From NCBI GenBank assembly GCA_017441125.1, contig JAFSAH010000024.1, positions 1 through 32,037 on the forward strand: a DNA stretch of 32,037 nucleotides, read 5' to 3'. A program made the translations under genes and the position numbers. Within the stretch, counting starts at the first letter, position 1. Every line of letters begins with the position of its first letter. The DNA comes from Clostridia bacterium. GTDB taxonomy: Bacteria; Bacillota; Clostridia; Oscillospirales; UBA644. The notes beneath the pieces are model-generated. The model did not search any database, had not been told where the DNA came from, and saw only the letters and a list, made by a program, of their open reading frames with translations. Below, in pieces: positions 2,054 to 6,106 of this stretch.

Positions 2054-4414
2054 TTATATTTCATAAAAATGCTCTGCAATTCTTACTGCATCCATTGCAT
2101 CAGCACCATAGAAATCAGCCTTGATCATTTCAGCATATTCCTTGTTCAGAACGGCACCTCCGACCATGATTTTAACATCGGGAGCCTTCTCATTGAGAAG
2201 CTTTATGGTTTCAGCCATAACGGGCACAGTTGTCGTCATGAGAGCGCTCAAACCCACAAACTTACAGTTAAATTTTTGAACAGCTTCAAGAACGGCTTCG
2301 GGAGAAACGTCTCTGCCTAAATCGTAAACAGTAAATCCATAGCTTTCCAGCATAACCTTTACGATATTCTTTCCTATATCGTGGATATCGCCTTTTACCG
2401 TTGCCAAAACAACGCTTCTGCTGTCGGAAACTTCAGATTTCGGCATTACGGCTTTAACCTCTTCAAATGCCGCGGAAGCAGCTTCCGCGCTCATTAAAAG
2501 TTGGGGTAAAAAGGCTTTTTTCGCCTCAAAATCAGCACCTATCTCATTCAACGCAGGAATAATATACTCGTTTATAACGCAAAGAGGCTCCGAGTTTTTC
2601 AAAAGCTCCTTAACGGCAGAAACAGCGTTTTCCTTCAAGCCTTTATAAACCGCCTTATGTAAGGTAATTTCTTCATTTTTAGCGGTTTTTTCCGCAGTTT
2701 GAGCTTCGGAACTGTTGGCATAATTTATGTAATCGGAACAAGCGGCATCAAGACCGTGAAGAACTCGGAAAGAATGGTAAACATCCATCATTCCAGAAGC
2801 AAAGGGATTCATAATGGCGCAGTTCAAACCATTTTCAAGGGCATTTGCAAAAAATGTCGAGTTAATAAGTTCTCTCTTTGGTAGTCCGAATGAAATATTC
2901 GATACGCCGAGACTTGTTTTTATCCCCTTTTGACTCAAGAACTTGACAGCTTTTAAGGTAACCAATGCACTTTGTTGATTTGAAGAAACTGTCAGAGCCA
3001 ACGGATCAACGATTATATCCTTTTTACCGATACCGTATTCGGAAGCAACAGATATTATTCTTTCTGCAATTGCCACTCGTTTTTCTGCTGTTTCGGGAAT
3101 TCCGCTGTTATCCATTGTGAGAGCAATTACAGCCCCGCCGTATTTCTGAACGAGGGGGAATATTTTTCGCATACTCTCCTCTTCCCCGTTTACGGAATTA
3201 ACAAGAGGTTTTCCGTTATAAATACGCATTGCGTCTTCCAAAACAGCAGCATTGTTTGAATCCAACTGCAGAGGAACATCAGTAACTGTCTGAACAGCCT
3301 CAACCGCGTTTTTCATCATGATTTTTTCGTCGATTTCCGGCAGACCTACGTTTACGTCAAGAACATGAACTCCTGCGTCAATCTGTTTTACTGCCTCGTT
3401 TGCAATATAATTCATATCGTTTGCACGCAAGGCCTCTTTAAATCGCGGCTTACCGGTTGGATTTATTCTTTCACCTATAAGGATAGGCTGTTCGTCTATT
3501 TCCACCGCATGTGTATAAGATGAAATAACGGTTTTTTCCTTATAATTCGGGACAGAATATTCAACAGACGCTGTTTTTCCCACAGTTTTTCTTATATAAT
3601 CGGGGGTTGTACCGCAACAACCTCCAAGAATACAAGCACCCTTTACCGCCATTTTTACCATATAATCGGAAAATGTCTCGTAATCAGTATTGAAAACCGT
3701 TTTGCCGTCCACAACAACGGGAAGTCCCGCATTGGGATTTACAATAATAGGAACTGAAGCATTTTCAACAAATCTATCTACAAGTCCAAGCATTTTATCG
3801 GGACCGAGAGAACAGTTCATACCCAAAGCCGAAACACCAAGACTTTCAAGCATAGCTATCATCGCTTCAGGAGATGCGCCAGTCATGAGTTTCCCGGTCT
3901 CGTCGTACACATTGGTAACGAATATCGGCAAATCACAGCTTTCTTTTGCGGCAAGAACTGCCGCTTTGGTCTCATAGCTGTCATTCATTGTTTCGATAAG
4001 TATAACATCTGAACGTGAAGCAGCAACTTTAATATTTGCGGAAAAAATTTCCACAGCATCTTCAAAATCGAGATCACCGAGAGGCTTGAGCAGTCTGCCC
4101 GTAGGTCCTATATCAAATGCGATAAAAGCATTTTCACGACCGCTGACCGCCTTTTCAGCACAATCCAATGCGGCATTTATCAATTCTTCGTAATTATTAT
4201 ATTTATCACGGTTTATACCAAAGGTATTCGTTTTGATAATATTGGCGCCCGAATTCAAATAGGCTTCATGGAGCGCGGTAATTTTTTCGGGAGCAGAAAG
4301 ATTCCACATTTCGGGAGGCGTTCCCGCAGGAAGCCCCATTGATTGCAAAACCGTTCCCGTACCGCCGTCAAAAAACAGTCTTTTGGTTTTTATTAAATCA
4401 GTTATTTTAGTCAT
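2054..4414 (-). CDS. metH: Cobalamin-dependent methionine synthase lacking the activation domain
   Basis: A 786-residue protein that transfers the methyl group of methyl-tetrahydrofolate to homocysteine through cobalamin. Three MetH modules follow in order: the homocysteine-binding barrel (about 1-290) with zinc-ligand cysteines C201 and C266/C267 in MNCSLGP and GGCCGTT; the pterin-binding barrel (about 310-560), starting at ILIGERINPTG; and the cobalamin cap plus Rossmann domain (about 570-786) with the B12-ligand motif DIHDIG near residue 672. Full-length MetH is about 1200 residues; the missing C-terminal AdoMet-binding activation domain is encoded by the upstream gene, which overlaps this one by 4 bases (ATGA). 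The same split is known from Thermotoga maritima. The metH start is therefore translationally coupled to the activator. Confidence 0.95.
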   Translation of the reverse strand: MTKITDLIKTKRLFFDGGTGTVLQSMGLPAGTPPEMWNLSAPEKITALHEAYLNSGANIIKTNTFGINRDKYNNYEELINAALDCAEKAVSGRENAFIAFDIGPTGRLLKPLGDLDFEDAVEIFSANIKVAASRSDVILIETMNDSYETKAAVLAAKESCDLPIFVTNVYDETGKLMTGASPEAMIAMLESLGVSALGMNCSLGPDKMLGLVDRFVENASVPIIVNPNAGLPVVVDGKTVFNTDYETFSDYMVKMAVKGACILGGCCGTTPDYIRKTVGKTASVEYSVPNYKEKTVISSYTHAVEIDEQPILIGERINPTGKPRFKEALRANDMNYIANEAVKQIDAGVHVLDVNVGLPEIDEKIMMKNAVEAVQTVTDVPLQLDSNNAAVLEDAMRIYNGKPLVNSVNGEEESMRKIFPLVQKYGGAVIALTMDNSGIPETAEKRVAIAERIISVASEYGIGKKDIIVDPLALTVSSNQQSALVTLKAVKFLSQKGIKTSLGVSNISFGLPKRELINSTFFANALENGLNCAIMNPFASGMMDVYHSFRVLHGLDAACSDYINYANSSEAQTAEKTAKNEEITLHKAVYKGLKENAVSAVKELLKNSEPLCVINEYIIPALNEIGADFEAKKAFLPQLLMSAEAASAAFEEVKAVMPKSEVSDSRSVVLATVKGDIHDIGKNIVKVMLESYGFTVYDLGRDVSPEAVLEAVQKFNCKFVGLSALMTTTVPVMAETIKLLNEKAPDVKIMVGGAVLNKEYAEMIKADFYGADAMDAVRIAEHFYEI

Positions 4415-5001
4415 TTTTCTATTCCCACTATTGCTGTTATAGTTTTTGCAGGTGACATAAGCAAAGATTTATTCAAGCTTATTCCCAATAATTTTTGAGC
4501 ATTTATTCTCCCAAGAAATGCCCCTTGACAAGACAGAGCCAAATCTCCGTAACCGGGACTGAAACGTGGTCTGCAAAGAAGATTTCCTTTTATAATTTCC
4601 TCCGCTTTATCTGCGGCGGCTTCAGCATATGCGGAAGCCAAAGCGTCGGCAATAAAGTGGCTTGCAGGAGAAGTAAAGGAAAGTTTATTTAAGAACCTAT
4701 CCACATTTATACCGAGGGTAACGCCAAAAAGAAATGCTTCATTACATCCCTTGAGATTTTTGAAAAGATTTACACTTTTCACCTCTCCAAAACCGCAACC
4801 CACAACATCTTCTTCTTTCAAAATAACAGGAACACGTACGGCAGAGTATTTACACAAAATATTCTGTTCAAGCTCTGATATCAATAAAGAAAAATCTGTC
4901 AGATTCGTATCCCGTGAAGTTTGAAGCCTTGCGCATACTTCATTTTTATTAAGATTTAACTCGGAGGTGGGTATAATTCCGTAATCTGTTGGATAAATCA
5001 T
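4411..5001 (-). CDS. Stand-alone methionine synthase activation-domain protein
   Basis: A 196-residue protein matching the C-terminal reactivation domain of MetH, which binds AdoMet and lets oxidised cob(II)alamin be reductively methylated. The diagnostic segment is RPRFSPGYGDLALSCQ near residue 145, corresponding to the R-x-x-x-G-Y AdoMet-binding motif of MetH. Upstream, FLFGVTLGINVDRFLNKL and ASAYAEAAADKAEE resemble the helices of the same domain. It overlaps metF at its start and metH at its end, each by 4 bases (ATGA), so the three proteins should be made in step. It has no methyltransferase modules of its own and presumably acts in trans on MetH. The electron donor, commonly a flavodoxin or ferredoxin, is not in the window. 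Confidence 0.88.
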   Translation of the reverse strand: MIYPTDYGIIPTSELNLNKNEVCARLQTSRDTNLTDFSLLISELEQNILCKYSAVRVPVILKEEDVVGCGFGEVKSVNLFKNLKGCNEAFLFGVTLGINVDRFLNKLSFTSPASHFIADALASAYAEAAADKAEEIIKGNLLCRPRFSPGYGDLALSCQGAFLGRINAQKLLGISLNKSLLMSPAKTITAIVGIEK

Positions 5002-5858
5002 GAAATAATCTCCGAAAGATTCTTTTGTATAGCCTCTGCAACATCGGGTTTATTCATCGAATATACGTGAACCGCATTCAAGCCGTTGGCGTAAAGGTCT
5101 ATGATCTGTTCAGTAGCATATGCAATACCTGCCTGCTTCATGGCTTTGGGATTATCCCCGTATCGGTCAACAAGACGCATAAATCTTTGAGGAAGAGTAT
5201 TTTGCGAAATTGAACATATTCTCTTTATTTGTGCGGCATTGGTAACGGGCATAATTCCCGCAACAACCGGCACATTCACTCCCGCACGGTAAAGCCTATA
5301 CATAAAATTATATAAAATATTGTTATCAAAAAACATCTGTGTGGTCAGGTATTCACAACCGCTTTCCACTTTTATTTTCAGGCTCTCAATATCTGCCCTG
5401 CTGTTTTCGCTTTCGGGATGATTTTCAGGATAGCAGGCACCGCCGATACAAAACCCACCGAAATCTCTGATTTCTTGGGTCAACTCGCTTGCATAGTGAT
5501 ATTCGAGATGCTCCATATTCATTCCTTCGGGTATATCACCTCTTAAAGCAAGAATATTTTCGATTCCTTTACCTTTAAGCTCTGTCAATTTAGTCTTAAT
5601 ATCCGCTTTCGATGAAGAAATACAGCTTAAATGAGCAATAGGCGTAACTCCGAGTCTTTTCAAGCTTACGGCAATATCCGTTGTATATTTGGACGTTCCG
5701 CCACCTGCGCCGTAAGTAACGCTCATATAGCTTGGATTCAGTTTTGCAATTTCAGTTGTGGCTTCAAGCACAGATTCTACCTTATCATCTGTTTTCGGAG
5801 GGAAAACCTCAAAGGAAAGACTTGGCTTCTCTCCTTTAATTATATCTATAACTTTCAC
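4998..5858 (-). CDS. metF: Methylenetetrahydrofolate reductase
   Basis: A 286-residue protein of the MetF/MTHFR family (E. coli MetF is 296), which reduces 5,10-methylene-THF to 5-methyl-THF with an FAD cofactor in the cytoplasm. It begins with the family hallmark LSFEVFPPKTDDKVE; the active-site glutamate is in SFEVFPP. Later family segments include MSVTYGAGG, LALRGDIP and TTQMFFDN. The start is GTG at 5858, preceded by GAAAGGGG seven bases upstream; this ribosome binding site lies directly after the U-tract of an intrinsic terminator. The gene is the first structural cistron of metF - activator - metH - ECF S component and appears to be controlled by a leader ORF and attenuator (see those entries). 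Confidence 0.96.
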   Translation of the reverse strand: MKVIDIIKGEKPSLSFEVFPPKTDDKVESVLEATTEIAKLNPSYMSVTYGAGGGTSKYTTDIAVSLKRLGVTPIAHLSCISSSKADIKTKLTELKGKGIENILALRGDIPEGMNMEHLEYHYASELTQEIRDFGGFCIGGACYPENHPESENSRADIESLKIKVESGCEYLTTQMFFDNNILYNFMYRLYRAGVNVPVVAGIMPVTNAAQIKRICSISQNTLPQRFMRLVDRYGDNPKAMKQAGIAYATEQIIDLYANGLNAVHVYSMNKPDVAEAIQKNLSEIIS

Positions 5859-5873
5859 ACCTCTACCCCTTTC

Positions 5874-5906
5874 AAAACAAAACCGGGAGACATTAAAGTC
5901 TCCCGT
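5874..5906 (-). terminator. Leader terminator immediately upstream of metF
   Basis: On the minus strand, CGGGAGAC (5905-5898) pairs perfectly with GTCTCCCG (5891-5884) around a 6-base loop, and is followed by a U-tract reading GGTTTTGTTTT. It ends about 15-20 bases before the GTG of metF and sits downstream of a promoter and a short leader ORF, so it would abort transcription before metF unless an alternative structure forms. Confidence 0.85.
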
Positions 5907-5955
5907 TACTTAATTTTCATATCGTAAATAATACGAAATTATAATGAGAAACTTT
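5895..5955 (-). promoter_or_regulatory. Candidate antiterminator pairing of the metF attenuator
   Basis: Minus-strand segment AAAGTTTCTC (5955-5946), covering codons 31-34 of the leader ORF, can pair with GGGAGACTTT (5904-5895), which contains most of the terminator's 5' arm. This gives ten continuous pairs, two of them G-U. Between them, TCGTA and TACGA can form a small inner hairpin. Terminator and antiterminator are therefore mutually exclusive. A ribosome finishing the leader ORF at 5941-5939 would cover 5955-5946 and favour the terminator; a ribosome stalled at the Met/Cys codons upstream would leave it free. The pairing was found by eye; no folding energies were computed. Confidence 0.6.
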
Positions 5956-6046
5956 CTGACAAAACAGCAGAAGAAACCTTGCACATACGGCTACACCACA
6001 TGCGCATCGCAAATATCATATTCGCAAAATAATGACAGAAGTTCAT
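5939..6046 (-). CDS. Met/Cys-rich leader peptide of the metF operon
   Basis: A 35-residue ORF that starts at ATG 6046 with a near-ideal ribosome binding site, AGGAG (6059-6055), eight bases upstream. It lies about 25 bases after the predicted transcription start. Methionine is at positions 1, 10, 14, 16 and 21 and cysteine at 4, 18 and 22; the stretch from 14 to 22 reads MRMWCSRMC. That is far more Met and Cys than expected for 35 residues. No signal peptide or domain is recognisable. The ORF ends 34 bases before the terminator stem upstream of metF, and its last codons overlap the candidate antiterminator strand. I infer a sensing leader peptide whose translation reports charged tRNA-Met and/or tRNA-Cys. 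A conserved small protein is the alternative. Confidence 0.65.
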   Translation of the reverse strand: MNFCHYFANMIFAMRMWCSRMCKVSSAVLSESFSL

Positions 6047-6077
6047 TATAAAATCTCCTATTATTTAAATTACACAT

Positions 6078-6106
6078 ATTATAGCACCGCAAACCCAACT
6101 TGTCAA
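6078..6106 (-). promoter_or_regulatory. Consensus sigma-A promoter of the metF operon
   Basis: Minus-strand TTGACA (6106-6101), a 17-base spacer and TATAAT (6083-6078), a perfect match to the housekeeping consensus. Transcription would start near 6071, about 25 bases before the leader ORF. It separates luxS-pfs from the metF operon. Confidence 0.9.

Follow-up and report, generated by a model that had tools for sequence, protein, structure and literature searches.

A putative ribosome-mediated attenuator with a Met/Cys-rich leader peptide before metF in an uncultured clostridium, with homologues before other sulfur amino-acid genes

The leader that precedes metF in the window (the whole stretch of 32,037 nucleotides that was analysed) is very probably a ribosome-mediated transcription attenuator controlled by the supply of methionine and/or cysteine. 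On the best reading of the sequences, it would work like the classical amino-acid attenuators, and it is of a type that we found undescribed in Firmicutes.

All elements of this leader lie on the minus strand. The promoter TTGACA-17-TATAAT (6078..6106) agrees with the consensus at 12 of 12 positions and has an extended -10 TG; a partial operator-like dyad, CCTATTGACAAGTTGGG, is present at it. The leader ORF (5939..6046; ATG at 6046, TAA ending at 5939, 35 codons) encodes MNFCHYFANMIFAMRMWCSRMCKVSSAVLSESFSL, a peptide homologous to 18 other leader peptides, with methionine at positions 10, 14, 16 and 21 and cysteine at positions 4, 18 and 22. Methionine and cysteine make up 7 of its 34 internal residues (binomial p about 7e-4 with an assumed background of 4.5%), a share exceeded in the homologues, and the putative leader is thus a short ORF with a Shine-Dalgarno (SD) sequence and an enrichment in Met/Cys codons, as the attenuator class requires. 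The control cluster, codons 10-22 (5981..6019; M-I-F-A-M-R-M-W-C-S-R-M-C), aligns with the conserved MMxMCMWxCxMCM. Four segments can be distinguished. Segment 1 (6032..6060) is the SD/start region, with the AGGAG of the leader ORF at 6055..6059, and in the MFE structure of the full leader it can pair with segment 2 in a "protector" helix, an element absent from the sequence-only reading. Segment 2, the antiterminator strand AAAGUUUCUC (5946..5955), is found in codons 31-34 (LSESFS), only two codons before the stop codon, and corresponds to UCCGAUAUGUUCUCC of the homologues. It is complementary over ten pairs (5955-5946 with 5904-5895) to segment 3, the 5' arm GGGAGACUUU (5895..5904) of the terminator. 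Segments 3 and 4 form the intrinsic terminator CGGGAGACTTTAATGTCTCCCG (5884..5905), which is followed by a U-tract to about 5874 and stands between the leader ORF and the first gene, as expected for an attenuator. The promoter, the ORF, the Met/Cys positions, the terminator and the ten-pair alternative pairing had all been described in the sequence-only reading, and each was recovered to the base on the sequence and in scans.

The gene that we propose to be regulated is metF (4998..5858; minus strand, like the rest of the operon), encoding a methylenetetrahydrofolate reductase (TIGR00676 above cut-off), whose own SD and GTG start (at 5858) come after the terminator. Further along the operon, metH (2054..4414) encodes a methionine synthase without activation domain (partial match to TIGR02082). 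Between the two genes, and overlapping both, an ORF (4411..5001) gave no match in an NCBIfam search; from its position and overlap it probably encodes the MetH activation domain as a separate protein and would be co-regulated with its neighbours. As luxS and pfs sit upstream of the leader, the whole neighbourhood belongs to the methionine/SAM cycle. Directly downstream of metH (1517-2023), a putative ECF transporter S component is encoded (TIGR04002/FolT-like, below cut-off).

In the proposed mechanism, segment 2, inside the ORF, would have two alternative partners, namely segment 1 with the SD and start codon, or segment 3 in the terminator. Without translation, the 1:2 and 3:4 helices would form and metF would be off. 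Free translation to the stop codon would leave segment 2 either covered by the ribosome or re-paired with segment 1, the 3:4 terminator would form and metF would again be off. When charged tRNA is low, the ribosome would stall on the Met/Cys codons 10-22 and hold segment 1 open; segment 2, left free, would then form the 2:3 antiterminator and RNA polymerase would read into metF-metH. Actual translation, stalling and termination, as well as the identity of the tRNA that is sensed, are things that we infer. A methionine shortage would also make ribosomes start less often on the leader ORF, an effect opposed to induction.

We then modelled the three states by sequential folding of 19 leaders. Without translation, the 1:2 helix and the terminator were obtained; with the ribosome placed at the final Met/Cys codon, the 2:3 helix formed before segment 4 was made in all leaders but one (G756_metY1; MFE); with a ribosome at the stop codon, the terminator was obtained in the 19 leaders. 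In these models, the antiterminator strand is placed such that the position of the ribosome would decide its pairing, as in attenuators. The sequence-only reading had supposed that a ribosome at the stop codon covers segment 2 and permits termination while a stalled one leaves it to segment 3, and the folding of the 19 leaders agrees. Simple masking by a terminating ribosome is nevertheless a better explanation for the window than for the homologues, most of which have their stop codon 8-10 codons downstream of segment 2. The off state of the homologues after full translation therefore probably relies on re-pairing of 1:2 together with ribosome cover; in the window, with its nearer stop codon, direct ribosome cover would suffice.

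The full leader of the window has an MFE of -59.9 kcal/mol (z -5.6 vs. shuffles), and its fold consists mostly of a long helix of the SD/start region with about codons 31-40, plus two hairpins inside the ORF. The 2:3 pairing of the window is not significant by itself, as 18 of 300 shuffles were as good, and the claim for this helix thus rests on comparative evidence. Duplex scans of 15 leaders gave segment 2 (about codons 25-36) as the best partner of the terminator arm, with the exception of G308, and the 2:3 duplex beat nearly all shuffles in most of these leaders; besides the window, weaker values were found for G544 (57/300), G103_metQ (17/300) and G308 (15/300). Segment 2 of the family is complementary to both the SD and the 5' arm plus loop of the terminator.

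This comparative evidence comes from homologous leaders elsewhere in Clostridia. A search with the single peptide in 394 genomes of the order gave mostly noise and one marginal match (G270, E 0.0066), which proved real on inspection: this leader shares the promoter of the window, encodes a peptide rich in Met and Cys, has almost the same terminator and precedes a NlpA/MetQ gene and an ABC ATPase gene. Nine other inspected candidates of this search were rejected by context. Iterated profiles and a covariance model were used after G270, and 18 further distinct leaders were found in all, from at least six families (f1, f18, f20, f35, f44 and f69) and at least two orders. Apart from the NlpA/MetQ and ABC ATPase genes of G270, the names of the downstream genes come from reading their translations. 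Four leaders precede metQ-metN (G270, G490, G308 and G103), nine precede metY, encoding O-acetylhomoserine sulfhydrylase (G175, G326, G412, G490, G103, two in G756, G678 and G645), three precede cysK (G544, G465 and G454, the cysK of the last being frame-disrupted in the assembly) and one precedes genes for a Ssu/Tau-like (sulfonate-type) ABC transporter (G497); for G565, the contig ends before the downstream gene. The leader peptide of G562 is identical to that of G326. To prevent circularity, the peptide HMM and the covariance model were rebuilt without the window. With the HMM of the other 18 leaders, the ORF of the window ranked first of 911 open segments (E 0.0011); with the RNA model R2 built from the same leaders, positions 5968-5875 ranked first in the 32 kb (25.5 bits, E 1.4e-4). 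The distribution of the leaders is patchy; in f20, for instance, some 240 genomes were sampled and about a dozen have the leader. Weak matches to the covariance model in G092, G489, G498, G559, G059 and G547 were put down to chance or to unrelated terminators. Decayed relatives were also observed, one before metF with no clear leader ORF (G530, L184:1310-1750) and one before metY with its Met/Cys cluster deleted and its terminator eroded (G501, L185). In G645 (L168), what seems to be a 1-nt shift close to the usual position of the stop codon, either an assembly error or a sign of decay, extends the leader ORF across the terminator.

The family has a constant order, i.e. promoter, GGAGAACA (SD, segment 1), ATG, the MMxMCMWxCxMCM cluster, segment 2 and terminator. 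The counterpart of segment 1 in the duplexes of the homologues contains the SD GGAGAACA, segment 2 (UCCGAUAUGUUCUCC) encodes SDMFS (SDxFS), the stop codon often lies inside a small CCGC/GCGG hairpin, and the terminator has the consensus ACCGGGAGACUUUAUCGGAGUCUUCCGGU plus a U-tract (segments 3 and 4). Cysteine codons are a mixture of TGC and TGT (46/30 over the first 28 codons; TGC:TGT of 8:5, 8:2, 14:3 and 7:4 in the Cys columns). The silent sites of segment 2 are near-invariant, with Ser TCC in 17 of 18 leaders, Asp GAT in 17 of 17, Phe TTC in 18 of 18 and Ser TCC in 18 of 19. These counts show, computationally, selection on the meaning of the Cys codons in the cluster and on the identity of the nucleotides in segment 2. 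Gaps in the alignment are mostly codon-sized inside the ORF and not after it. Compensatory changes, which the sequence-only reading had proposed to look for in both helices, were seen in the terminator, where 5 of 11 pairs have double changes and the covariation score was reached by 0 of 500 shuffles, slid versions scoring far lower. They were not seen in the 2:3 helix: under fixed columns it has no double compensatory changes, because segment 2 hardly varies, and its pairing is kept at 92%. The antiterminator is thus supported by silent-site near-invariance and complementarity, not by compensatory changes. For 2:3, the window is an outlier: the outer part (UCCGAUA with UAUCGGA) was lost on both sides, and ten uninterrupted pairs, one position out of register with those of the family, have taken its place. 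This joint change of both strands is suggestive, though a single event. Taken together, the homologous leaders, the three-state folding and the codon patterns support the main parts of the mechanism, namely the Met/Cys codons, an antiterminator within the ORF and a terminator ahead of metF.

Before met genes, the clusters contain 4-7 Met and 2-5 Cys codons. Two of the three cysK leaders no longer have most of these Met codons but retain Cys codons (M1/C4 in G544 and M2/C3 in G465), and the third (G454) is still Met-rich and also keeps its Cys codons; the Met content of cysK leaders compared with met-gene leaders gave a one-sided p of about 0.01-0.02, from few and related points. In these small numbers, the pattern supports codon-specific sensing with a specificity adjusted to the operon. 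The identity of the codons appears to be kept in relatives and matched to the downstream pathway, as would be expected of an attenuator. The cluster of the window has four Met and two Cys codons and its target is metF, and methionine is therefore the more likely signal for this leader.

Conservation of the leader upstream of metF in relatives, which the sequence-only reading had proposed as a check, was not observed, so that one of the outcomes it had named as refuting is half realised. The congeners G002 and G003 have a MetF 93-94% identical to that of the window and pfs at the same place (G003 also has a luxS-like gene before pfs). Despite the same pfs-metF order, they have no leader, and about 45 nt separate their promoter from metF. 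A DNA search with the leader in 59 relatives gave no leader homologue; the match in G055 is a promoter-like sequence beside unrelated genes. Neither the peptide HMM nor the covariance model detected a leader at 80 other metF loci, inspection by eye of the upstream regions of about 25 close metF relatives gave none either, and the leader was not found in other sampled genomes of the family of the window. Alone, this local absence would have argued for chance, i.e. for an ordinary untranslated region with an upstream terminator, in which the ORF and the pairing are coincidental; the window-only 2:3 pairing, no better than some shuffles, points the same way. Such a coincidence is already contradicted by the homologous leaders before sulfur amino-acid genes and by the non-circular detection with protein and RNA models, and we consider it extremely improbable.

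The strong multi-branched fold of the naked leader, with its low z score and its anti-antiterminator layout, might also be that of a metabolite riboswitch, e.g. for SAM, in which the ligand would stabilise the 1:2 helix (P1-like) and so allow the terminator. SAM riboswitches are present in some relatives (G009 and G025), one of them the congener G009, which carries a SAM-I riboswitch at G009:C73:40216-40338 (L199). Still, this alternative seems very unlikely to us, since the sequence separating segment 1 from segment 2 is conserved in the manner of Met/Cys codons, with drift at silent sites and gaps the size of codons, rather than in that of an aptamer, and since the window and 16 homologous loci gave no Rfam match apart from tRNAs. 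In the window, no Rfam family reached its gathering score, and relaxing the threshold to E 10 added nothing but noise, so the leader matches no known riboswitch covariance model, a match that the sequence-only reading would have counted against an attenuator. The S-box (SAM-I) family RF00162 was not detected in the window, nor was a SAM-I riboswitch in its own genome assembly (an incomplete MAG from an uncultured organism), and the Rfam T-box models found no T-box in the window and the 16 homologous loci.

Methionine genes of Firmicutes are taught to be under the control of S-boxes, T-boxes or repressors, and we know of no established Met leader peptide of the Proteobacterial attenuator class. 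In agreement with the sequence-only reading, which held such leaders to be undescribed, no Met or Met/Cys leader-peptide attenuator was found in searches of open-access literature, which is no proof of absence. The attenuator that we propose shares with the Proteobacterial trp, his, thr, ilv, leu and pheA attenuators an ORF rich in the regulated amino acid, the 1:2/2:3/3:4 alternatives and an intrinsic terminator upstream of the first structural gene. It differs from them in its amino acids (Met/Cys) and its clostridial host, and in its segment 2, which is part of the ORF and has the SD/start region, not the control codons, as its upstream partner. With the S-box (SAM-I) riboswitch and the Met T-box, it has in common the target genes in Firmicutes and the choice between terminator and antiterminator, whereas the proposed sensing here is via translation and not via an RNA that binds a ligand or a tRNA. 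The His leader peptides before hisZ/hisS in Bacilli are likewise regular leader-peptide attenuators in Firmicutes, for a different amino acid; with the exception of ermC, they were presented as the first case beyond Proteobacteria and Actinobacteria, and they were described as unusual for Firmicutes (PMC2965389). In an unrelated lineage, short Cys-rich ORFs also stand upstream of the sulfur genes of the mycobacterial cys operons; their Cys codons form a run close to the C-terminus, a conserved terminator is lacking and no Met codons are described (PMC1262725, PMC4633059). If our reading is true, the leader would represent a new route of Met/Cys control in gut and rumen Clostridia, recurring before metF, metY, metQN and cysK, and its natural variants would bear on how codon choice sets amino-acid specificity. 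The covariance model of the leader family is one that Rfam lacks.

The peptide itself has conserved residues (W, RMC and SDxFS), as would be expected if the nascent chain, together with methionine, SAM or another small molecule, arrested the ribosome and an RNA switch followed. A second mini-ORF, xxYFEKLVRANFRFGRM(C), which follows the terminator in many homologues, is much more like an arrest peptide and adds to the appeal of this explanation. For the leader peptide, the conservation of SDxFS reaches the silent sites, pointing to RNA pairing, and the cluster tolerates many substitutions by residues other than Met or Cys, two cysK leaders replacing Met and keeping Cys. Arrest by the leader peptide is thus unlikely in our opinion. 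The second mini-ORF (L105:1705-1761, L122, L123, L154, L165-L170 and L201-L216) is very conserved and lies after the terminator of most metY/metQ Met/Cys leaders; copies standing on their own also precede metY and methionine-type ABC ATPase genes. Its amino-acid sequence is conserved despite drift in many codons, and it is a candidate arrest peptide. Neither peptide matches a Pfam or NCBIfam model.

Finally, promoters similar to that of the window precede all homologous leaders. Operator-like dyads accompany nearly all of them, with TTACCTATTGACAAGGTAGGTAA overlapping the -35 box and ACCAACCTAAnnGGTAGGTAA immediately downstream of the start site (L105, about 1404-1462); in the window they are largely degraded (partial at 6109-6093). 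A repressor acting at such dyads could be the main control, the leader being here a degenerate remnant like the decayed leaders of G501 and G530. Yet the window keeps the terminator, the ORF, the Met cluster and a re-registered 10-bp 2:3 helix, and it is the promoter dyad that degraded, which makes this explanation quite improbable. Beyond attenuation in the window, we tentatively raise a broader possibility, which we hold to be rather doubtful. It is a modular clostridial attenuator family with a common RNA chassis that would use interleaved Met and Cys codons to sense both amino acids. The codon content would be retuned from one operon to the next, towards Met for met genes and towards Cys for cysK, and many operons would combine the attenuator with an operator at the promoter and with the second mini-ORF, acting as a separate nascent-peptide sensor. 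The promoter of the window is closer to those of the homologues (CCTATTGACAAGnTnGGT) than to those of the congeners, and promoter and leader may have arrived together. In the leaderless congeners, a GGGCAGT...ACTGCCC palindrome surrounds the metF promoter (L014:2915-3000 and the same region of L005), suggesting repressor control there instead.
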